48,791 nt of DNA from a virus: the IMG/VR virus record IMGVR_UViG_3300046507_000366, positions 1 to 48,791 of that record; one strand, written 5' to 3'. The notes beneath the pieces were generated by a model. It was not told the origin of the DNA. It did no database searches and was given only the letters and a program-made list of their open reading frames with translations. Of this stretch, positions 5,603-18,670 are shown in pieces. The number at the start of each line of letters is the position of its first letter. The first letter of the stretch is position 1. Position numbers and translations under genes: made by a program.

Positions 5603-5624
5603 AAACTGGACTTTCAGATCCATG

Positions 5625-6197
5625 TGTCCAGTTTTGTCCAAAAGTGTCCAGTTTTGTCCAAAAGTGTCCAGTTTCTTCGAAAACCTGAAACCCAAGCCCA
5701 GTAAGGGTTTGCGGCCGACGTGTCCAGTGTGTCCAATTTCTCTAAAAAAAACTGGACAGCTGAAACCCAAGCCCAGTAAGGCTTTGAGGGGATTTGTCCA
5801 GTTTTTTCGCCTTTTTTCCAAAAACCATACCTCACTTTCTTTTTGACTAAATAAAAAACAAAAAAGGAAAAACTTAGGGTTCACCCTAACAGTCCAGAAA
5901 TATGGGGGTACTATATATATATTTATATTTGAACTTTTAAAAAATATATTTATATATAAGAGAATGTGTTTTCTATTTTGCTTATTTTTTATTTGTAAAA
6001 GGAAGTGAGGTATGGTTTTTCCAAAATCTTCAAAAAAACTGGACAAAATCGCTGTGAGCCTTATTCCGTATGGGTTTGAGCCTGTCCAGTTTTTTATTTG
6101 AAAATTGGACAGACTGGACACACCGCCCGCAAAGCCTTACCCAGTAAGGATCTCAGCCTTTTGAAGAAACTGGACACTTTTGGACAAAACTGGACAC
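5625..6197. repeat. ~550-bp palindromic array of TGTCCA boxes around an AT-rich core (candidate replication or partition locus)
   Basis: TGTCCA starts at 5625, 5635, 5645, 5655, 5665, 5721, 5730 and 5795, with its reverse TGGACA at 5753. On the right, TGGACA starts at 6040, 6106, 6115, 6171, 6181 and 6191, and TGTCCA at 6083. Nearly all pairs mirror exactly about position 5920.5. Two arms are perfect: 35 bp (5644-5678 with 6163-6197) and 18 bp (5820-5837 with 6003-6020). The centre is a TA-rich run (about 5909-5960). Five left boxes are spaced exactly 10 bp apart, so they lie on one face of the helix. Copies of a CCCAGTAAGG-like element lie in both arms. Symmetric boxes with an easily melted centre suggest an origin; a centromere-like site is an alternative. 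The 5541-6387 stretch holds no convincing gene. Confidence 0.75.
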
Positions 6198-6387
6198 GTG
6201 TCTTTTGGCGATGTTTTAGCGAAGCCTTGCTAGAGGTCATACTAACCCTAGGATTGGATTACAGCCTCTAGGAGCCTCTGGGAGGGGTAGATAGGTAGCC
6301 GAGTAGCCGATGACTCTAGAAAGGGCTTAAAACGGCTCTAATAAGGTCTGAATCTTTTAACGTAAAATCGTTGACAGAAGAGACCGA

Positions 6388-7695: not shown

Positions 7696-8583
7696 ATGCT
7701 AGCATACACACTTAAAGAAATTCTCGATCTTGTGCCAGAAGCAGCTTCATTCGTTAAGCAGGCTTCTGTTGACCAAGAAATGCCCCTTGACAACAAGGAT
7801 TCTTGCATTGCTACAGCTCTGCAAATGAAGTACCATGAAAAAGTCGCTTACAAGGCCGTAGACGTTTTTGCGCTAGATAAGGTTGCAAAAGCTGTTGAAG
7901 CCTACGGCGTACAGACAGAAGTCACAGCTCTTACTGACCGTATGGTTAAGGCTGCTGCTCAGCGTACAGCCACTGCTGCTGCAATCGCTACTGACGACTA
8001 CCTAACTAAACAAGCTTTCTTCGAAGGCGAACTCTCAGGTCTTCGTGTAAACGGTACACTTTCAAAGCAAGCTTCCGAGCTTTATGACGAAGCTAAAGAA
8101 AAGGGTATTGAACCTAGCGACGCTGTTATTCGATATTCAGGTCATGGTTATCTGAATAAAGAAGCTGCTGTAAAGGCTCTTGCTAATCGTTTCTATGAAA
8201 CAAAGAATGCATCCTTTGTAAAACTTGCTTCAGCAATCCATAAGCTACCTGGTCAAATCAAGCCTGAGACAGTCCGCGACATTTGTGATACAATTTCAGA
8301 AATGGATAAGCAAGCGGGTCTCACAACAAGAGGCTACAATTTCTACAATGAAACGATTTTCACTAAAGAAGCTGCAATCAGATCATCTCTGAATGTCAGG
8401 CTTTGCGGAAAAGACGTTCCTTTTGAAAAGATTGCAAAGCTCGGCAAAGGCCATTTCTCATCAATGATGGGTGCAGATATTGGCAATGAGTTTGATCACG
8501 GCCCAGTACATTTCAAGCAAGTACTTGAGACACTGCCGATGGATCTGCAAAAAGTTGCTCTGCATTTAACTAACAACGTATAA
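7696..8583 (+). CDS. Unknown helical protein (possible virion component)
   Basis: A 295-residue Ala/Lys-rich, mostly helical protein with no family recognised. KQA- or KEA-type tripeptides recur (FVKQASVDQ, LTKQAFF, LSKQASE, LNKEAAV, MDKQAGL, FTKEAAI), each before a helix, suggesting a degenerate internal repeat of roughly 30-60 residues. It starts 19 bases after the previous stop, and the next gene starts two bases after its own stop, so these are co-transcribed. It may be a structural or internal virion protein. Confidence 0.6.
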   Translation: MLAYTLKEILDLVPEAASFVKQASVDQEMPLDNKDSCIATALQMKYHEKVAYKAVDVFALDKVAKAVEAYGVQTEVTALTDRMVKAAAQRTATAAAIATDDYLTKQAFFEGELSGLRVNGTLSKQASELYDEAKEKGIEPSDAVIRYSGHGYLNKEAAVKALANRFYETKNASFVKLASAIHKLPGQIKPETVRDICDTISEMDKQAGLTTRGYNFYNETIFTKEAAIRSSLNVRLCGKDVPFEKIAKLGKGHFSSMMGADIGNEFDHGPVHFKQVLETLPMDLQKVALHLTNNV

Positions 8584-8585
8584 GT

Positions 8586-9149
8586 ATGTTTGAAGAAGAA
8601 GATATCGGCATTGAATTGAAAGCCCCGGATCCTAGGATGGCGATGGCTTCAATTTCACATATTAAGACCACTCTGGATCGTATCTTCGGTAAAGGTGAAT
8701 GGAGAGAACTCGAAATCGAGACTATCTCTATTACTCTAGGAATGGTACTTGACGGGCTTACTCGGGACAAGATCAGTGTTCTTCAGCTTATCGAAGGCCA
8801 GCCTGAACTTTTCTTTGAAGACGCTGCATTTACTCTATATGCAACAGATGTTATTAACAACATCGAAGCAGACTTTGAATTCGTACCTGCTCCTACAACT
8901 CTAGAACTTGCATACGCAATTACAGAGGTACGTAAGGTACTAGTAGAGAATGGTATTTATGTACCACTAGAGGCAACAGGTCTTGTAACTACAGCTGCAT
9001 ACATGTTACGCCAAGAAGGTTACTCTGAGCCTGTAGCACCGTTTGATTTTATTCCTTCAGAAATGCTAGAAGCCGGTCAGACTTCAGAAGATACAGAAAA
9101 TAAGAAGAAAGCTATTAGGCGATATATCAAAGAAATGGGCGGTGACTAA
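8586..9149 (+). CDS. Unknown acidic protein
   Basis: A 187-residue acidic, largely helical protein with no family recognised. It begins MFEEEDIGIELKAPDPRM and ends with the basic tail ENKKKAIRRYIKEMGGD. The stop codon shares its A with the next start (TAATG), so expression of the two is probably coupled. It belongs to the 7.0-9.6 kb plus-strand operon of unknown genes. Confidence 0.6.
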   Translation: MFEEEDIGIELKAPDPRMAMASISHIKTTLDRIFGKGEWRELEIETISITLGMVLDGLTRDKISVLQLIEGQPELFFEDAAFTLYATDVINNIEADFEFVPAPTTLELAYAITEVRKVLVENGIYVPLEATGLVTTAAYMLRQEGYSEPVAPFDFIPSEMLEAGQTSEDTENKKKAIRRYIKEMGGD

Positions 9150-9556
9150 TGTATTCAATCGAAATCGAAGTAAACAACCCAGTTAGCATTATTGCTCAAG
9201 GTCCAAGTTCTGGCCTTACAGCCCCGCCTGATCAGATCCTACTTTTTAATGGTGCTGTTAGCGTTCTTCCGGTTACGTTTGCACCAGTCTCAGGTCCTCT
9301 TTACAAGATGACTTTTACTCCGACAGTAACAGGTACTTATATCCTTTACGCATTCGGTCAACTTCAAGGCGTTGTAAACGTAGTAACCCAGTCACTCTAT
9401 ACTATTACCAAAAATATTCAAGATGAAGCTATTGGTTCTTGGTCATGGGATAAGACCGCTGGTACATTGATTATGCTTAGACAGGATGGCACCACACTTG
9501 CGCAATTCACAGTGGTGGATAATCTAACAACTTCAAGCAGAGAACGTATTTCGTAA
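9149..9556 (+). CDS. Unknown beta-rich protein (possible Ig-like fold)
   Basis: A 135-residue protein, predominantly alternating hydrophobic and polar strands (YSIEIEVNNPVSIIA, YKMTFTPTVTGTYILYAFGQ). The TPTVTGTYILYAFG pattern is like the last strands of an Ig-like sandwich. The C-terminus (GSWSWDKTAGTLIMLRQDG) ends LTTSSRERIS. It overlaps the previous gene by one base. It may be a small virion adhesion or decoration protein; no family recognised. Confidence 0.55.
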   Translation: MYSIEIEVNNPVSIIAQGPSSGLTAPPDQILLFNGAVSVLPVTFAPVSGPLYKMTFTPTVTGTYILYAFGQLQGVVNVVTQSLYTITKNIQDEAIGSWSWDKTAGTLIMLRQDGTTLAQFTVVDNLTTSSRERIS

Positions 9557-9563
9557 TAACGCT

Positions 9564-10166
9564 GTGAATGTAATTTCTAGAATCGAAGCTAAGACAAACG
9601 GCTTAATAAAGTACTTTACTGGAAAGCCTTGCAAAAACGGACATTTCTCAAAACGATTTGTAAATAACGGATATTGCGAGGCTTGTAAAAAAGAACGTAG
9701 GCAAAATCCTGAAGTTAGAGAAAAAGAACGTTTACAATGTAAATCTTATAAAGATAAAAATACTGATAAGATTATCAAGTACAATAGTCAATATTATTTA
9801 AACAATCTCGAAACAGAACGAGCTAGACGTAGAGCTTTTTACGCAGCTAATCCTGATCTATGTAGGGCCTATTCTAGGAATTGGCAAAAACAGAACCTAG
9901 ATAAAGTTTACTTCAAAAATTCAAATAGACGAGCGGCCAAATTGCAAGCTACTCCAGTTTGGGCAGATTTAGAAGCTATGAAGTTATTCTATGCAGAGTC
10001 TATTAAACTTTCTGAAAAAACTGGTATTACACACCACGTAGATCATATAGTTCCATTGCAGAATGAATTAGTCTGCGGGCTACATAATCAGTTCAATTTA
10101 CAAATACTAACTGCTACAGAGAACATTTCTAAAGGAAATAGATTCTGGCCAAATATGCCAGATTAA
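9564..10166 (+). CDS. HNH homing endonuclease
   Basis: A 200-residue protein. An N-terminal zinc-binding module (CKNGHFSKR...GYCEACKKE) precedes a basic linker. The HNH core is HHVDHIVPLQNELVCGLHNQF, then NLQILTATENISKGNRFW near the C-terminus. Such free-standing enzymes cut cognate DNA and spread themselves into gene junctions. The start is GTG, weakly matched by a ribosome-binding site. Both adjacent genes look intact. Local codon use is more AT-rich than in the preceding genes, consistent with a mobile insertion. Confidence 0.85.
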   Translation: MNVISRIEAKTNGLIKYFTGKPCKNGHFSKRFVNNGYCEACKKERRQNPEVREKERLQCKSYKDKNTDKIIKYNSQYYLNNLETERARRRAFYAANPDLCRAYSRNWQKQNLDKVYFKNSNRRAAKLQATPVWADLEAMKLFYAESIKLSEKTGITHHVDHIVPLQNELVCGLHNQFNLQILTATENISKGNRFWPNMPD

Positions 10167-10308: not shown

Positions 10309-11574
10309 TTAGAATTGATCTACATTGTCCCAGACGCTACCCGTCGCAGGAGGTACTGATTCAGGAAGTGCAAACGTGTCGTTGTTAGCTTCAGCTTCAA
10401 AGTCAACCAACGCAGGACCACTTGCTTCACCGACCAACGGTTCAGCGTTGAATGTAATCGTGGAAATCTCTACATTCATCGGCTCAACTTGAATCACTGG
10501 ACGTAGTTCCTTCACCTTCGTTTTCTTCTTCGGAGCTGCTGCCTTAACTTCTTCAACTACCGGGGCACCGACAGTTTGAGCAGCGAGGAGAGCATTAACA
10601 GCTTCAGTATTTTGATGAAGGAACTGACCTAGTAAATCATCATCTCCAGCGCTCTGCTGCACATGAAGGAGCATTCCGTCATCTACTCCAATACTTCGAA
10701 TGGTGGTACCGCTGTGAATCATTTTATTACGATACTCTACAACAGTGTTTTTCGTATAGGCTGTAGAGCCTTTAACGATATCGATTGATACTGCGTTGTA
10801 GTCGATAACCTTGTTATAGTAATGGTTCTGAACAAAAGACAGAATGTACATTGCCATCAAAGAATTGATAGCCAACGTCTGATCTAGATCTGCGCAACTA
10901 CCGAGTCCAGGGTTATCTTCCAAATCACGATAAAAATGAAAATCGAACGGAATGAAATTCAAAGGCTCAGGTACAAACTCAATGCGTTCCGGATTTTTGT
11001 ATTTTTTACGAGCCACCTCTTCATTCTGGAACCTATGGTCCACAAGAACTGCATTGTGGAACATGCGAACCTGACCGAAACTATCTTCGTTACCAGCATC
11101 GATAAATACAGTATTCTCCCCGTATACGCCCTGCAGTGCCTGAATAACAATACGACGAGCCTTGGCACTATCAACGCACATGATTACCATGTCGTTGTAG
11201 TTATTGGTCAAATTAAGACCAGTGGCTTCATTTAGAAGACTACGGAAGTTCTGCGGATTCGTACCTTCTTCGATGTACTTCATGTACGGAACAACATTCA
11301 TCCCATACGCCTTACCATACCGATTTGCCAGAACCAAGGCCTTGTTCTTACCCACATCGCTCTGAACGAAGTTCTGACGAATCAGATTCTTCTGTTCCAC
11401 TACGTCACCGTCAACCAGGACGATGTTCGTAGTTCCAAGCCAGCCAGAGGGCACGTGTTCTTTCGTGATTGAACGAATGAACTGAATCAATGCCGGTACG
11501 AGTCGTGAACCAGTTCCTCCACAGCCAACTACGAAAATGTTCGAGGGAATCGAGGAAGGACGGAAAGTAAACAT
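10309..11574 (-). CDS. E1-like ThiF-family adenylyltransferase (PRTRC ThiF-like)
   Basis: A 421-residue protein. FVVGCGGTGS (14-23) is the nucleotide-binding Rossmann loop, and VLVDGDVVEQKNLIRQNF (52-69) is the E1 signature with D57, R66 and the downstream K76 for ATP. MCVDSAKAR (132-140) and GSCADLDQTLAINSLMA follow, with C227 the best candidate for the catalytic thioester cysteine. E1 enzymes adenylate the C-terminal glycine of a ubiquitin-like protein, here presumably the tandem protein encoded at 15.8-16.2 kb. Residues ~300-421 form an Ala/Pro/Glu-rich tail outside the fold. It has its own promoter box at 11651-11660 and a CAGGAG ribosome-binding site. Confidence 0.85.
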   Translation of the reverse strand: MFTFRPSSIPSNIFVVGCGGTGSRLVPALIQFIRSITKEHVPSGWLGTTNIVLVDGDVVEQKNLIRQNFVQSDVGKNKALVLANRYGKAYGMNVVPYMKYIEEGTNPQNFRSLLNEATGLNLTNNYNDMVIMCVDSAKARRIVIQALQGVYGENTVFIDAGNEDSFGQVRMFHNAVLVDHRFQNEEVARKKYKNPERIEFVPEPLNFIPFDFHFYRDLEDNPGLGSCADLDQTLAINSLMAMYILSFVQNHYYNKVIDYNAVSIDIVKGSTAYTKNTVVEYRNKMIHSGTTIRSIGVDDGMLLHVQQSAGDDDLLGQFLHQNTEAVNALLAAQTVGAPVVEEVKAAAPKKKTKVKELRPVIQVEPMNVEISTITFNAEPLVGEASGPALVDFEAEANNDTFALPESVPPATGSVWDNVDQF

Positions 11575-11650
11575 AAAAATTAACTCCTGAGGTTAGACAA
11601 CATATAGGCGCAATGACCTTGTTTAAGGACGTGTTGGTCCGTTCAATATT

Positions 11651-11660
11651 CTTATACCAA
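11651..11660 (-). promoter_or_regulatory. TTGGTATAAG promoter-like box for the E1/ThiF gene
   Basis: Minus strand reads TCTTTGGTATAAGAATATTG, 77 bases upstream of the ThiF-like start and overlapping the stop codon of the upstream small gene. It would let the E1 be transcribed separately from the rest of the cassette. Confidence 0.6.
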
Positions 11661-11861
11661 AGAATCGGTATTTAAAGGACGAGGTCCAGTCTCTTCTCCG
11701 ATGATGGCTACACCGCCACAAGCATCGAGTTGAGCAAGATAATTCTTGGAAGCTTCAGCCTCTCGTTCAGGCGTAGCCATCATACATCTGAAACAGATTG
11801 CTGAAAAGTTAGGACCGTATGGTCTTGTCTCTTTATCTTCTTTGCAGTATACGCAAATCAT
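11652..11861 (-). CDS. Small zinc-finger-like protein (69 residues)
   Basis: Two CxxC pairs (CVYCKEDK at 3-6 and CFRC at 23-26) form a likely treble-clef or ribbon-type zinc site. The C-terminal half is helical and then Gly-rich. Function unknown; it could be a small nucleic-acid or protein adaptor. The ATG overlaps a preceding nine-codon frame (ATGA) and has an AAAGGAAG site upstream. It is the last gene of a tightly overlapped four-gene cluster lying between the JAB and E1 genes. Confidence 0.65.
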   Translation of the reverse strand: MICVYCKEDKETRPYGPNFSAICFRCMMATPEREAEASKNYLAQLDACGGVAIIGEETGPRPLNTDSLV

Positions 11862-11879
11862 TTAAATACTTCCTTTTGT

Positions 11880-11984
11880 TCAGTCATTGTTAGCCTCTGC
11901 TAACCATTCAAGAAAGTGTTCGTAATTTCTGAAAGCGCGTTTAGTACCTTTGCACGACAGAAAATATAGGAACCATTCAGTCAT
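11880..11984 (-). CDS. Small overlapping gene, 34 residues
   Basis: Its ATG overlaps the stop of the upstream gene as ATGA, and its own end is followed by another ATGA junction. The product begins MTEWFLYFLSCKGTKRAF and ends EWLAEANND: aromatic N-terminus, basic middle, acidic end. It shares a W-rich, E-W-L style with the 39-residue product two genes upstream. The exact stop-start overlaps on both sides are the main evidence for coding. Confidence 0.55.
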   Translation of the reverse strand: MTEWFLYFLSCKGTKRAFRNYEHFLEWLAEANND

Positions 11985-12250
11985 GTTGAAGTGAATTTTT
12001 CAGACTCCCTAACAATAAGCGCATCCTGCCAAGCTATTTGCCAAGTAAACCAATCAACGTTAATCCCTGCTTGACGCTGAGCGTCGAAGCCTTCCTTCAT
12101 TGACACTCTACGAGTATCCCTGTCTTGAAGTTTTCCTACAAATGGGAACACTACTCCACGGATACGTTCCCGCAATTGTTGTGTCTGACCGTATTGCTCG
12201 GCTACTTCCGTCAACTGGGAAACTAATTCACGAATTTCATGGTCTTTCAT
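11981..12250 (-). CDS. Unknown helical protein (89 residues)
   Basis: The start is placed at MKDHEIRELVSQL because this ATG overlaps the stop of the upstream 39-residue gene as ATGA; an upstream GTG in frame lacks that support. The product is charged and helical (QLTEVAEQYGQTQQLRERIRG), with a W-rich C-terminal part (INVDWFTWQIAWQDALIV). No family recognised. It is part of the four-gene minus-strand cluster between JAB and E1. Confidence 0.6.
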   Translation of the reverse strand: MKDHEIRELVSQLTEVAEQYGQTQQLRERIRGVVFPFVGKLQDRDTRRVSMKEGFDAQRQAGINVDWFTWQIAWQDALIVRESEKFTST

Positions 12251-12366
12251 TTGTACCCCATGATTTCGAGCCACTCAGCATACGAGCATTCCATAACACT
12301 GCCAGATTGCATGTGCCAGTTCTTATTCCACACATACAACAACCAGAGTTCAGTTGTATCGCTCAT
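12247..12366 (-). CDS. Small gene, 39 residues, first of the overlapped cluster
   Basis: ATG follows AGAGAGTTGAA, right after the terminator of the JAB gene. The product begins MSDTTELWLLYVWNKNWHM and ends EWLEIMGYK. Four tryptophans in 39 residues is unusual. It joins the next gene by a 4-base ATGA overlap, supporting real translation. Function unknown. Confidence 0.55.
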   Translation of the reverse strand: MSDTTELWLLYVWNKNWHMQSGSVMECSYAEWLEIMGYK

Positions 12367-12377
12367 TTCAACTCTCT

Positions 12378-12405
12378 AAAAAAGAAGCGCTCGATTAGGA
12401 GCGCC
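12378..12405 (-). terminator. Terminator after the JAB gene
   Basis: Minus strand GCGCTC-CTAATC-GAGCGC perfect 6-bp stem followed by TTCTTTTTT. It lies nine bases after the JAB stop and 12 bases before the next small gene, separating the two units. Confidence 0.8.
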
Positions 12406-12413
12406 TCTTATAC

Positions 12414-13745
12414 TTAGTGAATACCGTTCATCTGGATTCGTTCTTGAGCCTTGTCAGGAAGTTCCTGATACAAGTCTCTGAACAATTCCTCTTGACCTTC
12501 TTCGGACATCATGTGAATCATGTCGCTCATCAGGTTACGAACGAGATCATCTTTGCCATTCAGAACAGACATCCCATCATCGATCAAACAGAAGATGTCA
12601 GCAACGTCTTTACCGTGTTCTTCCTTGACTTCTTCATACCGCTCATCACAGTCAAACGTGGTGTTAACGTCAGGATCGAAGTCAGGATTATACGGGTGAA
12701 CACGGGGACTGTAGTCTAGATGTGAATCCTCATACCCCGGATCTTCACGGAGCACTGCCAAAGCACGTTCTGCTTTGTCCAGAGTAAGCTTCGAAGGATC
12801 AATGATTCCATCAGCATCTACATCGTCGGGGTTGAAGGCCCAGGACTCCCAAGGAAATCCTCCACCTCCGGAAAGGTTAGCTGCCTCGGATCCGAAACGC
12901 TCCTCCCAATAGTTCCCATAACCATCGGGAAGTAACCCCCTATCGTGAGCCAGCATATGTGGACCTGCCCGATTTCCTTCGCTTGTGTTTTCTCCCCTTT
13001 TGTACTGCCAGGGTTTGAGATGATCCGCTTTTCCCTTTTGGTTGTTCCCTCCCGTCGAATACCCAGTGCTCGTAGTCACGATCTTGGAAATCCAATCTTC
13101 AGGAATTGCTTGCTCTTCACGAACCGGGAGAACAAAGATGTCATCGAATTCACATTCGATTTTCTTATCCTTGTAGTTAAAGCGCCACACTGTCTGCGGA
13201 GTTTCATCCTTCAGACGGCCAACAACACCGGAGAATCCGATATTGCCTTGGTCATCACGGTTGTCTGTACCGCTGAAGAATGCACCCATCGTATTGTGAC
13301 TATGAATATCACAGACGATAGTCTTACCAGCAGGCAACGAAGCCCAGTCATACGAAGCCGAAGCCTTTGACACACGTTGTTCAGGGACAATCAGATGATA
13401 ACCACTTTCTTGATCCCAACAAACCCAAATCATTGCTTCAAGCTCGGACTTCTTCACTTCCATGACTTGCTTGAAGAATGCCACGACTTGATCGAACAAC
13501 TGAATCGGAATCTTGCCATCAGGCAGGAAGTTGATTTCTTGAGAAACCTTTTCTTCCTTGTAGTTAGCCGGAAGCTTGTCAACCTTAAGACGAACGAAAC
13601 GATTACGACCACGAAGCTTGTGATGCTTGACAATACCCTCACTCGTCATAGCGTAGATTTCGCTATAACCAGCTTCAATTGCAGTTTGAAGCTCGTTGGG
13701 AAGAACTACGCAGCTGATGTGTTGGCTGATGATTTCCATTTTCAA
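12414..13745 (-). CDS. JAB/JAMM metalloprotease (PRTRC protein A-like deubiquitinase)
   Basis: A 443-residue protein. DIHSHNTMGAFFSGTD (146-161) is a complete JAMM motif, H-x-H-x7-S-x2-D, with H148, H150, S158 and D161; E101 or E103 is the likely upstream catalytic glutamate. JAMM enzymes cut after the C-terminal glycine of ubiquitin-like proteins. Here it may separate the two ubiquitin-like units or reverse conjugation. Residues 1-95 form an N-terminal domain like that of PRTRC protein A. The long C-terminus (~230-443) is acidic, Gly/Pro-rich and without a recognised fold. It starts 15 bases after the E2-like gene. Confidence 0.85.
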   Translation of the reverse strand: MKMEIISQHISCVVLPNELQTAIEAGYSEIYAMTSEGIVKHHKLRGRNRFVRLKVDKLPANYKEEKVSQEINFLPDGKIPIQLFDQVVAFFKQVMEVKKSELEAMIWVCWDQESGYHLIVPEQRVSKASASYDWASLPAGKTIVCDIHSHNTMGAFFSGTDNRDDQGNIGFSGVVGRLKDETPQTVWRFNYKDKKIECEFDDIFVLPVREEQAIPEDWISKIVTTSTGYSTGGNNQKGKADHLKPWQYKRGENTSEGNRAGPHMLAHDRGLLPDGYGNYWEERFGSEAANLSGGGGFPWESWAFNPDDVDADGIIDPSKLTLDKAERALAVLREDPGYEDSHLDYSPRVHPYNPDFDPDVNTTFDCDERYEEVKEEHGKDVADIFCLIDDGMSVLNGKDDLVRNLMSDMIHMMSEEGQEELFRDLYQELPDKAQERIQMNGIH

Positions 13746-13759
13746 ATATCCTTAATTAC

Positions 13760-14515
13760 TTAGGGTTTCGTATAACCACGGAGTTTTTCATACGGGAACG
13801 GCTCGTTGTTCTTAGCTGCTGTTTCAAGAGTCTTGAACCAATCTTGTGCAACAACCTCTTCTTTTAACGAGCGCAAACCCAAGTCATTGTTAAACGGAGA
13901 TTCAAACAGGAACTGATAATACCAATTCAAGCCTTGCAGATTGTTGTCTTGGAAATGTGAAGGCATCGAGTTTCCGCCATAGCACATATGACCTTCTGCG
14001 TATGTGTTCGGAAACGGAGACAGATATACACGATTAGTCGGATTCTGATCCCAGATCAAACCCTTCGACAAAGCACCTGATCTCTTATCCGTACAGAAGA
14101 ATCGTGATCCAACCGTTCTCCATTGCTTGTTATTATGCTTTTCTAACTTATGGCTGATGATGATATTCGGAGTCTTGACCGTATACTTTCTGTCAAGATG
14201 CTGCATCTCAGCGACACGTTCTGCATAATAACAACTGAGCTGAATCGATGTACCAGACTTTGCAAAGAAGAAACAGTTTGCAGGAAGTTGGAAACCTTCA
14301 AGCGATTCTTCATTACGACGATTCAGCACAGCACTGATGATGTTACCGAAATCTTCATACGTGATTCGCTTCTCAATACTGCTGGTGTCATCACCAATTA
14401 CTACTGCCACGCAATCTTCCAGAAGGATGATGTGCTGACCCTTGGTATCAACGAGGTTTTCCTCTGCTACAGCACTAACGTCAACGCTAGCCGTTTCAAT
14501 AGTAATATCGCTCAT
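13760..14515 (-). CDS. E2-like protein (Prok-E2 family D / PRTRC protein B-like)
   Basis: A 251-residue protein. VYLSPFPNTYAEGHMCYGGNSMP (163-185) resembles the conserved segment of PRTRC protein B and the bacterial E2-D family, making C178 the probable thioester cysteine. The N-terminal half is beta-rich (IILLEDCVAVVIGDD). The C-terminal part (SHFQDNNLQGLNWYYQFLF ESPFNNDLG) is helical. It would accept the ubiquitin-like protein from the E1 and pass it to targets; no separate E3 is recognised. It overlaps the 84-residue gene by four bases (ATGA) and is followed by JAB. Confidence 0.72.
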   Translation of the reverse strand: MSDITIETASVDVSAVAEENLVDTKGQHIILLEDCVAVVIGDDTSSIEKRITYEDFGNIISAVLNRRNEESLEGFQLPANCFFFAKSGTSIQLSCYYAERVAEMQHLDRKYTVKTPNIIISHKLEKHNNKQWRTVGSRFFCTDKRSGALSKGLIWDQNPTNRVYLSPFPNTYAEGHMCYGGNSMPSHFQDNNLQGLNWYYQFLFESPFNNDLGLRSLKEEVVAQDWFKTLETAAKNNEPFPYEKLRGYTKP

Positions 14516-14766
14516 ACGAAATCCTCTTCTTCCTCAACAGCCGCATGCTTGGCTTTTACGATGTTTGCTTCGATGTTCTTAAGATCCACTCTGCGTCTGC
14601 TATTGTTTTCACATGCAAACGTCTTACAAGTTACGATCATTAGAAGTTCGAGTTCCTTGTGACCCAGTTCTTCACCGATAGTTTTAAACTTCTCCTGGAC
14701 ACTTTTTACTTCTTGTGACAGATCAGGAAGCTTCGCTGCTTCCGATATTAAACGCTGCAGTATCAT
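14512..14766 (-). CDS. Unknown 84-residue coiled-coil-like protein in the ubiquitin-like operon
   Basis: Mostly helical with heptad-like spacing (LISEAAKLPDLSQEVKSVQEKFKTIGEELGHKELELL), then a CKTFACENNSRRR stretch and an acidic end (EEEEDFV). Its start lies inside the last ~44 bases of the 301-residue gene, and its stop overlaps the E2-like start. It is thus translationally coupled on both sides. No family recognised; a small adaptor for the conjugation enzymes is possible. Confidence 0.6.
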   Translation of the reverse strand: MILQRLISEAAKLPDLSQEVKSVQEKFKTIGEELGHKELELLMIVTCKTFACENNSRRRVDLKNIEANIVKAKHAAVEEEEDFV

Positions 14767-15628
14767 AGCTAACTTTTCTGGAAAGTGTTTTAATAACCTG
14801 TTGAAGTTCTTCCAGTATCAGGAAGATTTTCTCAGCAGACACGTATTTCTCAACCCCAGGATAAAACGTAGGTACCCGACGAGACGTGATATCGAAAGTT
14901 TCCCAATTTCTAACGTCTCTTAATGAGGCCAATCTCTCGTTATGCTTATATTCAATAAGATAGTTTTCGTAGTCTTCGTATGTATTGATGCCATCAACAA
15001 GATTGTTAGTTATAACTCTTACATACTCGTCGTAAAAATATCCTCTTATCGAAAGCTTGGCCGTAAGAGTGATTCGCATCCGCACTTTACATGGACTAGC
15101 CTGGGTTTGATTCCATGCATGAAACGCATTCATATCTTCAGGATGAGTTTCATGGGTAAATCGAATACGCTCTAAGTTCAAAGGAATACCACCTCTCATA
15201 CACTTAAAGTTCAAATACTTAGTGTATCTGCGCATCGACCTTACCCAGTGCATTCTTTCGCTCAAAGTACTTATCGAATCCCAAGGTTCTACATCAAAAG
15301 TCATATACGGAGATACGATTTTTAAAGCAACGGCATTTGAAGAAGTACTATTGATAATGATATCGCCACCGGCAATATACTCAATATAAGGAACTTGTTT
15401 CTTTACTGCTTTGTACAGAATATCTTTAAGCTTTTGAACAGACTTACGTTGACCGCCAGCTCTTGCACCAGAGATGTCGAACTGATAATTAAACGTTTTA
15501 GTGGAGAGCTTATGATCCAGGATCTTCTTTGTACAGAATACTCTGAGCTTCTCTTCTGCTTCTAGTCTCATCTTCTGAAGTTGCCGAGGCAAATCAGATT
15601 CTGAGCGAGGTACTTTAAAAGTTTGCAT
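14723..15628 (-). CDS. Unknown 301-residue protein in the ubiquitin-like operon
   Basis: No family recognised. It is basic and mixed alpha/beta, with a GARAGGQRKSVQKLKDIL segment (54-71) that could bind phosphate or nucleic acid and a beta-rich middle (YIAGGDIIINSTSSNAVALKIV). Cysteines are few and unpaired, so it is not RING-like. It is the first gene after the terminator-like hairpin that follows the ubiquitin-like gene and it overlaps the 84-residue gene. Placement makes it a candidate conjugation target, adaptor or new component of the system. Confidence 0.6.
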   Translation of the reverse strand: MQTFKVPRSESDLPRQLQKMRLEAEEKLRVFCTKKILDHKLSTKTFNYQFDISGARAGGQRKSVQKLKDILYKAVKKQVPYIEYIAGGDIIINSTSSNAVALKIVSPYMTFDVEPWDSISTLSERMHWVRSMRRYTKYLNFKCMRGGIPLNLERIRFTHETHPEDMNAFHAWNQTQASPCKVRMRITLTAKLSIRGYFYDEYVRVITNNLVDGINTYEDYENYLIEYKHNERLASLRDVRNWETFDITSRRVPTFYPGVEKYVSAEKIFLILEELQQVIKTLSRKVSYDTAAFNIGSSEAS

Positions 15629-15690
15629 TCTTATTGTCCTTGAGTTATTCCCGTTTTTCTTAAGCTCCTAGCTCGACTAAAAAAAACAGG

Positions 15691-15730
15691 AAAAACGAGC
15701 AGCGTGGCTAGGAGTGAACCCTGCTGCTCG
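15691..15730 (-). terminator. Terminator-like hairpin between the ubiquitin-like gene and the enzyme genes
   Basis: Minus strand CGAGCAGC / GCTGCTCG perfect 8-bp stem with TTTTT after it. Its loop contains CTCCTAGC, which can pair with GCTAGGAG just downstream (about 15665-15672), giving an alternative fold. It may limit transcription into the enzyme genes. Confidence 0.7.
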
Positions 15731-15768
15731 TATCACTACTCAGTGGCTAAAAGCAACTGAAGTAATTC

Positions 15769-16191
15769 TTAACCCTTCGTGCCGGTACGCGGCTTGAAGG
15801 TGATTTCACGGACGGTCTCGCCGTCTTGCGTCACAACACGCTCTTCGAACTGCATCGAACCGATGTTCGGAATGTCGTTCGCATAATTGCGTTGGATCGA
15901 TGCCGGGGTATAGTCACCCGGGATTTGGTACTCCGTGTCCGTCGAAGCGATGGTCACGATGGTCTTCGTTACGCCAGCACCCTTGGTGCCCGTACGGGGC
16001 TTGAAGGTGATCTCACGAACCGTTTCACCGTCTTGCGTCACGACACGTTCTTCGAACTGCATGCTGCCGATATTAGGAATATCGTTAGCGTAGTTGCGTT
16101 GGATCGAAGCAGGCGTGTAATCGCCCGGAATTTGGTACTCGGTGTCGGTCGAAGCGATGGTAACGATAGTCTTGGTTACGGTTGCAGCCAT
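15769..16191 (-). CDS. Tandem ubiquitin-like protein (two identical PRTRC-C/Prok-Ub-type units)
   Basis: A 140-residue protein made of two 67-residue copies (V5-G71 and V74-G140), identical in every residue and joined by an Ala-Gly linker. Each has a beta-grasp-like pattern (TKTIVTIASTDTEYQIP, SIQRNYANDIPNI, REITFKP) and ends in GTKG, the ending I recall for PRTRC protein C. Known role of the family: a ubiquitin-like modifier activated at its C-terminal glycine by the E1. Inference: JAB cuts after G71 to release units, as in polyubiquitin. The DNA copies differ at ~30 positions, all silent. The gene is visibly richer in GC than its neighbours. It is first in its unit, after a promoter box at 16265. 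Confidence 0.82.
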   Translation of the reverse strand: MAATVTKTIVTIASTDTEYQIPGDYTPASIQRNYANDIPNIGSMQFEERVVTQDGETVREITFKPRTGTKGAGVTKTIVTIASTDTEYQIPGDYTPASIQRNYANDIPNIGSMQFEERVVTQDGETVREITFKPRTGTKG

Positions 16192-17059: not shown

Positions 17060-18670
17060 ATGGACAAAGAAAGCCTTTTAAAACTAAAGCCCTCCGAGAT
17101 TTCCAAAGCTCTGCTCACTCTTAAAGGTAAGCCTCTCAATCTCGAAGATTACAAGCCGTTTGAAATCATCTATGACGTTTCTCCTAATGAAATGACTTTG
17201 ATGGCAGGTCGGCAGATTGGCAAATCAGTATCTCTTGGCGCAGCTATTGTAGCCAACAGTCTAGTTCGCCCTCACTTTTCGACTCTGTTCAGTAGCCCAT
17301 TGTCTCAACAGACATCACGATTCTCAACAGCATATTTAGATCCCTTCTTAAGTTCCCCTCTTATCCGTAAGCACTTCGTTGATGCGGGCTCACGTAAGAA
17401 CGTATTCTCAAAGTCATTTACTAATGGCAGTGCTGTAACATTGGGTTACGCAGAAACAGAACAAGACGCCGACCGTATTCGTGGAGTCTTCGCTGACGCT
17501 CTGTACCTAGATGAGTTCCAAGATACCAGTCTTGAATGTGCCCCTATTCTTGCAGAAACGTTGGGTGCTTCAGACTTTGCATTCAGACGATACACAGGCA
17601 CGGCTAAAACAGAGACTAATTCACTCACACAGAAGTTCAAGCAATCGAACATGATGGAGTGGGCGGTTAGATGTACGCATTGCAATAAGTACACGCTACC
17701 CCTTGATTTCGATATTTGCCATACGATTCTGCATGCCAATAAAGAAGGTCCAGGCTGTGTGTACTGCGGAGGTCTGCTCGATATGTCCACTGGTAAATGG
17801 GTGGCAGCAAAACCTGCTGAGAAAGACCATTACGGGTTTCATTTACCTCAGCTTATTTTCCCTGCACGTACGAGACCTAAGAAGTGGAAGGATCTACTTC
17901 ATAAGGCCAAGACTTATTCAGTGCCTAAGCTTGCTAACGAAGTGTTTGGATGCCCTAGCGGTCTAGCTGGTCGTCCACTATCACTTAAAGAAGTAATGGC
18001 ATGTTGTAACAATAACAAGACAGAGTGGGATAAGGGTTTCCCAATGGATGAACGTAATATTCTCCATACTGTGCTTGGAGTAGACTGGTCAGTAAGTGGT
18101 GGTTCTAATTCATACACCGTTATTACAATCATGGGTTACGACTGGAATGGTAAGGGATATCTTATTTACGCCCAGCGCCTGAATGGTATTGATATTCTTG
18201 ATCAGGTTAAGCGTGTTGAAGAACTATACGCAAAATACAAATGTACAATGCTTGCTTCAGACCGTGGTGTTGGCCAGTTACAAGTAGAATTGCTTAGAAA
18301 AAGTATTGGCCAGGATAAAGTAAATTCTGTACAATATGTAGCAGCAAAGTCTACGCTTCGTTGGGACAGAGAAGGACAGTTCTTTTCAGCAGATCGAACA
18401 ACGAACATGGACACGATTGTATTGAAGGCTAAGATTGGCCGTGATCGTATCGAGACTCCTTGTTGGAACCTGATGTCTGAATTCTGGCAGGACGCATTGA
18501 ACATTTTCGAAGAAGAATCCGTGACTGGGCGTCGTCTGTATAAAAAAGATGAAGACTTGTGTGATGATTGGTTCCACAGTGTAGTTTTCGCTAATATAGC
18601 GTATATGGTTCTTAAGGGTGAGTTCACAACGGTGGACGAGATTAAAGAGAACAACGTATTTGATTTTTAA
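17060..18670 (+). CDS. Terminase large subunit (TerL)
   Basis: A 536-residue packaging motor. AGRQIGKS (49-56) is the Walker A motif and ADALYLDEFQD (145-155) the Walker B with catalytic E152. The C-terminal RNase H-like nuclease shows LGVDWSVSGG (D342), MLASDRGVGQ (D401) and CDDWFHSVVFA (D502/D503). A CxxC...CxxC zinc ribbon (C205, C208, C233, C236) is inserted after the ATPase core, as in some large-phage terminases. It cuts concatemeric DNA and drives it into the procapsid. Portal and capsid genes are not adjacent; tail-assembly-chaperone-like genes follow. The start has AGGATC directly upstream. Confidence 0.9.
   Translation: MDKESLLKLKPSEISKALLTLKGKPLNLEDYKPFEIIYDVSPNEMTLMAGRQIGKSVSLGAAIVANSLVRPHFSTLFSSPLSQQTSRFSTAYLDPFLSSPLIRKHFVDAGSRKNVFSKSFTNGSAVTLGYAETEQDADRIRGVFADALYLDEFQDTSLECAPILAETLGASDFAFRRYTGTAKTETNSLTQKFKQSNMMEWAVRCTHCNKYTLPLDFDICHTILHANKEGPGCVYCGGLLDMSTGKWVAAKPAEKDHYGFHLPQLIFPARTRPKKWKDLLHKAKTYSVPKLANEVFGCPSGLAGRPLSLKEVMACCNNNKTEWDKGFPMDERNILHTVLGVDWSVSGGSNSYTVITIMGYDWNGKGYLIYAQRLNGIDILDQVKRVEELYAKYKCTMLASDRGVGQLQVELLRKSIGQDKVNSVQYVAAKSTLRWDREGQFFSADRTTNMDTIVLKAKIGRDRIETPCWNLMSEFWQDALNIFEEESVTGRRLYKKDEDLCDDWFHSVVFANIAYMVLKGEFTTVDEIKENNVFDF

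Follow-up and report, generated by a model that had tools for sequence, protein, structure and literature searches.

A complete ubiquitin-like conjugation operon, related to known systems, in the core genome of a phage lineage

Organization of the Locus

The window analyzed here is a whole virus record of 48,791 bases. Its ORF listing contains a run of minus-strand genes reading from 16191 to 10309 in the order Ub2, X, Y, E2, JAB, two small ORFs, and E1. The original prediction had placed four ubiquitin-system proteins together on one strand, and their coordinates and minus-strand orientation were confirmed. The cassette and its fixed neighbors comprise the following features.

15769..16191, minus strand: Ub2, tandem ubiquitin-like precursor, 140 aa, with two protein-identical units, each ending RTGTKG
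15979..16191, minus strand: Ub unit 1 (MAATV...GTKG), 71 aa; cleavage by JAB would be expected after G71
15772..15978, minus strand: Ub unit 2 (AGVTK...GTKG), 69 aa; terminal glycine free at the stop codon
15677..15731, minus strand: intrinsic terminator, a 9-bp stem closing a longer hairpin, then a T run; separates Ub from the enzyme genes
14723..15628, minus strand: X, conserved operon protein, 301 aa; in the PRTRC_F position, with no detectable PRTRC_F similarity
14512..14766, minus strand: Y, conserved operon protein, 84 aa
13760..14515, minus strand: E2-like protein, Prok-E2_D / PRTRC_B, active-site C178
12414..13745, minus strand: JAB/JAMM metalloprotease, PRTRC_A-like, with E103, HSH 148-150, S158, and D161
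11981..12274, minus strand: small ORF lying between JAB and E1; conservation among relatives is inconsistent
11652..11861, minus strand: 69-aa ORF, phrog_18256, retained by the closest relatives
10309..11574, minus strand: E1/ThiF adenylyltransferase, PRTRC_ThiF-like, with GxGGxG, catalytic C227, and a long C-terminal extension
17060..18670, plus strand: large terminase subunit, fixed neighbor of the cassette
7696..9556, plus strand: three homologues of the virion-associated Arash proteins gp242, gp243, and gp245, fixed neighbors at the E1 end

JAB translation probably starts at the ATG at 13739 rather than at the TTG at 13745. A near-DNA search in phages returned no match. Beside the cassette, a 200-aa ORF (9564-10166) with paired C-x2-C motifs and an HHVDHIVPL stretch looks like an inserted HNH-type homing endonuclease, and is absent from the relative L003. 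Farther away, a large imperfect inverted repeat (5621-6200) with repeated GTCCAGTTTT motifs around an A+T-rich center is possibly a non-coding structured region or an origin.

Conjugation Enzymes and the Associated Proteins X and Y

Family searches matched E1 to ThiF (E = 1e-14) and PRTRC_ThiF (6.7e-26), JAB to Prok-JAB (6.7e-10) and PRTRC_A (1.2e-21), and E2 to Prok-E2_D (1.2e-8) and PRTRC_B (5.1e-7). Because every NCBIfam score for the cassette proteins falls below the trusted cut-off, the three enzymes are regarded as relatives of the PRTRC families and not as equivalogs. The catalytic residues of a conjugation cascade (E1 cysteine, E2 cysteine, and JAMM motif) are conserved. In an alignment of approximately 100 distinct phage E1 sequences, C227 is invariant (100/100) and the ATP-site residues G17, G19, G20, D55, R66, K78, and D135 are essentially so; the residue aligned with E2 C178 is cysteine in 89 of 89 phage homologues, and E103, H148, the intervening serine, H150, S158, and D161 of JAB are kept in almost all. 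The family matches and residue conservation bear out the earlier description of an E1/ThiF protein with a full ATP-binding signature, a complete JAMM motif protein, and an E2-D/PRTRC-B-like protein with a probable active cysteine.

Searches of the PDB with the E1 profile gave weak sequence matches to MccB and ThiF, the best being the solved ThiF-type proteins 9egb, 9egc, and 9egd; a text search found no paper naming 9EGB. The E2 and JAB profiles retrieved nothing useful from the PDB, and no E3 was recognized in the cassette. X and Y, which are absent from the original prediction, are found between Ub and E2 across the lineage and have no known fold. Assignment of X to PRTRC_F was rejected, as X showed no profile similarity to that family, no family match, and no PDB fold match.

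A Tandem Ubiquitin-Like Protein Under Polyubiquitin-Like Selection

The predicted two-unit ubiquitin-like protein ending in GTKG proved to consist of units whose 67-residue cores are identical in protein sequence while their DNA differs at 32 of 201 bases. Between the units, the Nei-Gojobori method gives a dS of 1.33 and no amino acid is changed; the few nonsynonymous differences counted stem from an AGC/TCG serine switch. Identical protein encoded by such divergent DNA indicates that selection holds the protein constant, as in polyubiquitin. The repeat was also considered as an assembly artefact or duplicate, an explanation rejected on the strength of the 32 silent differences and the presence of the identical 140-aa protein in five further contigs.

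Related phages carry one to six units, with two in L051 (20 silent changes, no amino-acid change), four in the cultured Bacillus phage KLEB27-3, and six in L173. In most arrays silent change is high (pS 0.44-0.87) and amino-acid-changing sites amount to 0-6%, the diverged units of L052 being an exception. Such saturation of silent change without amino-acid change argues strongly, in our view, that a viral gene is under polyubiquitin-like selection. All aligned units share a GxKG end, and many relatives' precursors continue with tails past KG, so that cutting is needed, presumably by JAB.

Selection on the protein is not claimed as the sole cause of the ultra-conservation of Ub between phages, where protein identity is 100% against 71% for E1, since silent divergence of the Ub gene is low as well (dS 0.23 versus 0.8-2.6); recent exchange or codon selection therefore contributes.

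Ub2 matches PRTRC_C weakly (E = 0.019), and another viral cassette found with the same Ub profile scores 2.6e-31 against that family. In dozens of phage cassettes, Ub ORFs of the same family as Ub2 occupy the corresponding place in the operon. The structure check called for in the original prediction was carried out on a single Ub unit. The model has beta-beta-alpha-beta-beta order (pLDDT 89), but a fold search of the PDB gave no hit with E below 0.001; the highest-ranked hits include many beta-grasp folds, with UBX, ferredoxin, PI3-kinase, protein L/G, and one UBL domain among the entries, along with unrelated Rab GTPases. The Ub profile likewise found nothing in the PDB by sequence. A beta-grasp fold is thus supported by predicted topology and not proven by fold search.

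Expression signals set Ub apart from the enzyme genes. The terminator hairpin 3' of Ub in the window has a folding energy of -19.9 kcal/mol (z -2.5), and terminator-like hairpins occupy this position in 29 of 30 distinct loci of the Arash-like lineage, compared with 39 of 580 shuffles and, among other viral loci, 7 of 52. In the window, a TTTTTTAGT motif shared downstream of terminators occurs no more often than expected by chance. In Arash, codon adaptation measured against the capsid and tail-tube genes is 0.74 for Ub, a gene of only 67 codons, and 0.53-0.57 for E1, E2, and JAB, which brings Ub codon usage near that of the major capsid gene. This pattern fits production of the modifier in bulk and of the enzymes in catalytic amounts.

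Conservation and Core Position of the Cassette

Alignment-based scans of viral contigs recovered 144 JAB and 100 E1 relatives. All four genes occur in 138 of 167 loci, some of them redundant, in the order Ub-E2-JAB-E1, and the fuller order Ub-(X,Y)-E2-JAB-E1 is kept across approximately 100 distinct E1 sequences (<95% identity). Cultured relatives include Salmonella phage Arash, Vibrio phages D69, D181, and D148, Bacillus phage KLEB27-3, Acinetobacter phage ME3, and Burkholderia phage BgVeeders33. The window and Arash share the position of the cassette, which runs antisense between the gp242-gp245 homologues and the terminase; the Arash record is cut at the cassette position.

Whether the cassette is core or accessory was assessed on contigs selected by a terminase scan blind to its presence, with those offering at least 6.5 kb upstream counted as usable. 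Where terminase identity was at least 45%, the four genes lay beside the terminase in 35 of 36 usable viral contigs; the remaining contig has Ub beside the terminase and, farther off on that contig, JAB and E1 (L041, L117), so the cassette is carried by all 36, which are partly redundant and do not represent independent events. A contig with 38% terminase identity also has the cassette, located elsewhere (L052, L128), and none of 15 usable contigs with terminase identity of 33% or less has it beside the terminase. In an E1 tree built by a quick method, the E1s of the lineage group together in a single clade (support 99), separate from those of plasmid PRTRC systems. The cassette is therefore a core locus of one lineage of large myoviruses, not cargo or a variable accessory. 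The search for conserved neighborhoods proposed in the original prediction, run here on viral contigs, thus found gene order and terminase-side position kept across the lineage, and the claim that a phage carries the modifier together with its enzymes is upheld by a complete E1-E2-JAB-Ub set homologous to cultured phage loci. The operon is real, complete, and unexpectedly core in these phages, and is a variant of known ubiquitin-like systems.

Comparison With Known Systems

No settled function is known to us for ubiquitin systems of the PRTRC type; judging from their titles, the papers on PRTRC retrieved by text search concern other subjects. The phage set shares with PRTRC (TIGR03735-03738, TIGR03742) the E1, E2-D, and JAB families, putatively the Ub family, and the C-(slot F)-B-A-ThiF part of the plasmid order ParB-E-C-F-B-A-ThiF; homologues of ThiF, PRTRC_A (JAB), and PRTRC_B (E2) are adjacent in PRTRC order, with scores below NCBI trusted cut-offs. 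Unlike plasmid PRTRC, the phage set has an unrelated-looking X and a small Y in place of F, often has tandem Ub, and is fixed among virion genes. PRTRC ParB and PRTRC_E were absent from 15 phage records; PRTRC_E was present in the control plasmid, which alone gave a full ParB match. The proposed link to PRTRC therefore stands as kinship of the E1-E2-JAB-Ub set and fails as strict membership; the phage set would work like a PRTRC-type conjugation set and is not filed here as a PRTRC system.

Ubiquitin-like conjugation with E1, E2, and JAB also serves phage-bacterium conflict in Bil and in CBASS type II (Cap2/Cap3). Those are bacterial defenses, and CBASS fuses E1 and E2, whereas here the proteins are encoded by separate phage genes. 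No fused E1-E2 of the Cap2 type was encountered, PADLOC E1-E2 matches being short and partial, and the cassette enzymes had no significant full-length match to PADLOC. The nearest precedents are the tandem repeats of 6e-type operons and the lambda tail Ub/JAB pair. The former have two to three tandem ubiquitin-like repeats, likened to polyubiquitin, in E1/E2/JAB neighborhoods (Iyer, Burroughs, Aravind 2006, PMC1779556), but are found in bacterial genomes, whereas the genes described here belong to a phage core and encode up to six near-identical units in relatives. In the lambda/T1 tail assembly proteins TAPI/TAPK, a phage ubiquitin-like protein with a C-terminal glycine is encoded beside a JAB in the tail gene cluster; no E1 or E2 is described there, and the cluster differs from the phage cassette (PMC1779556). 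Text searches covering mainly the open-access literature turned up no description of an E1-E2-JAB-Ub operon in a phage.

Cassette Proteins in Purified Arash Particles

A published proteome lists Gp246, Gp247, Gp248, Gp249, and Gp251 among 116 proteins in purified Arash particles, the cassette proteins being represented by 2-5 unique peptides and 95-430 spectra (PMC10585845). The GenBank "structural" labels fit the proteome table better if its numbers are taken as one higher in this region; E1, JAB, and E2 are in the particle list under either numbering. Replication enzymes also appear in the list, and the authors caution that some entries may reflect carry-over of proteins abundant in the cell (PMC10585845).

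Ub conjugates would not have been recognizable in that search, for three reasons. The Arash Ub ORF (L012 107-307) is unannotated, being covered by the out-of-frame gp251c (L012 102-320), and the search database followed the annotation (PMC10585845). Trypsin, by cutting after the lysine of TKG, would leave a single glycine on the target lysine, a shift of +57.02 Da that is isobaric with carbamidomethylation. Lastly, iodoacetamide was used and carbamidomethylation was set on cysteine only (PMC10585845).

Proposed Function and Alternatives

We consider, with moderate confidence, that the locus encodes a complete phage ubiquitin-like conjugation module, a ParB-less PRTRC relative in the core genome, which would act during normal infection, with virion proteins as plausible targets. 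That the module conjugates protein is very probable. A transcript of its own would yield abundant Ub as a tandem precursor, which JAB would cut after each GTKG; E1 would adenylate the terminal glycine and take Ub onto C227, as its invariant residues suggest, and C178 of E2 would then hand Ub to a lysine of the target, from which JAB could remove it. The original prediction had left open tagging of host or phage proteins. A role in the phage's own infection or assembly program fits best. From the module's fixed place among virion genes, its constant presence in the lineage, and the co-purification of its enzymes with particles, we infer that it most likely acts on phage proteins of virion structure or assembly, or on some other protein abundant in the normal infection cycle. 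Virion proteins as the main target are proposed tentatively. More speculatively, polyubiquitin-type conjugation by the phages' own system may be a step that the lineage cannot do without in virion assembly or infection, and it is equally speculative that such a step has been overlooked because the Ub gene is unannotated and the single-glycine remnant resembles iodoacetamide alkylation.

Other readings of the same genes are less probable. Tagging of abundant host proteins, inactivating or redirecting them during infection, would draw on a Ub that looks highly expressed from its codon usage and own terminator, and nothing in the sequence restricts the target range; phage proteins are the likelier targets given the fixed place among virion genes and the presence of E1, E2, and JAB in purified particles, and although host targets are compatible with both observations, we regard host takeover as unlikely. 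Bil tags phage tail proteins, and the cassette's JAB and competing tag could oppose this, by pre-emptive capping of tail-protein sites or by removal of host Bil or CBASS tags, as would suit a place near tail genes. A host-specific counter-defense, however, should come and go as hosts change, yet all 36 usable contigs keep the set, and the enzymes lack significant full-length PADLOC matches; the invariability of this core locus disfavors countering a host system, one of the roles originally suggested, as the main function, and we consider it improbable.

Plasmid-like maintenance or another DNA-linked role, as presumed for plasmid PRTRC and also raised originally, would accord with the shared C-F-B-A-ThiF order, but is disfavored by the missing ParB and PRTRC_E and by the reported lack of lysogeny genes in Arash (PMC10585845), and is the explanation to which we give least credence. 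Little more can be said for sulfur-carrier or small-molecule chemistry in place of protein conjugation. ThiF-type E1s also serve ThiS/MoaD and MccB-like pathways, to which the weak PDB matches of E1 would correspond, but the invariant E1 and E2 cysteines, the JAB, and the tandem near-identical units are hallmarks of conjugation, leaving this chemistry very improbable.

For the favored role in the phage's own program, Arash offers a natural case: a cultured lytic phage whose PRTRC-type system belongs to the core genome, can be removed genetically, and comes with a set of targets that can be tested. Should the tagged proteins prove to be those of the virion, phage assembly would normally include a ubiquitin-like conjugation step, mirroring the bacterial defense in which phage tails are tagged.

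Irregular Gene Structures Among Relatives

Several relatives show irregular forms of the enzyme genes. In Acinetobacter phage ME3 (L015 2736-5850), an insert interrupts JAB at the catalytic "MDIH"; it contains a tRNA-Met and a match to a group I intron in Rfam (E = 2e-20). JAB-profile matches are spread over two ORFs in L034, L109, and L110, where JAB may be interrupted or its C-terminal part divergent. The annotated E1 start in Vibrio phage D69 (L013 6960-7190) falls after the ATP-binding loop; the open frame runs further upstream without ATG, GTG, or TTG, and GGAG precedes an ATT codon, so that D69 E1 likely uses a non-standard start.
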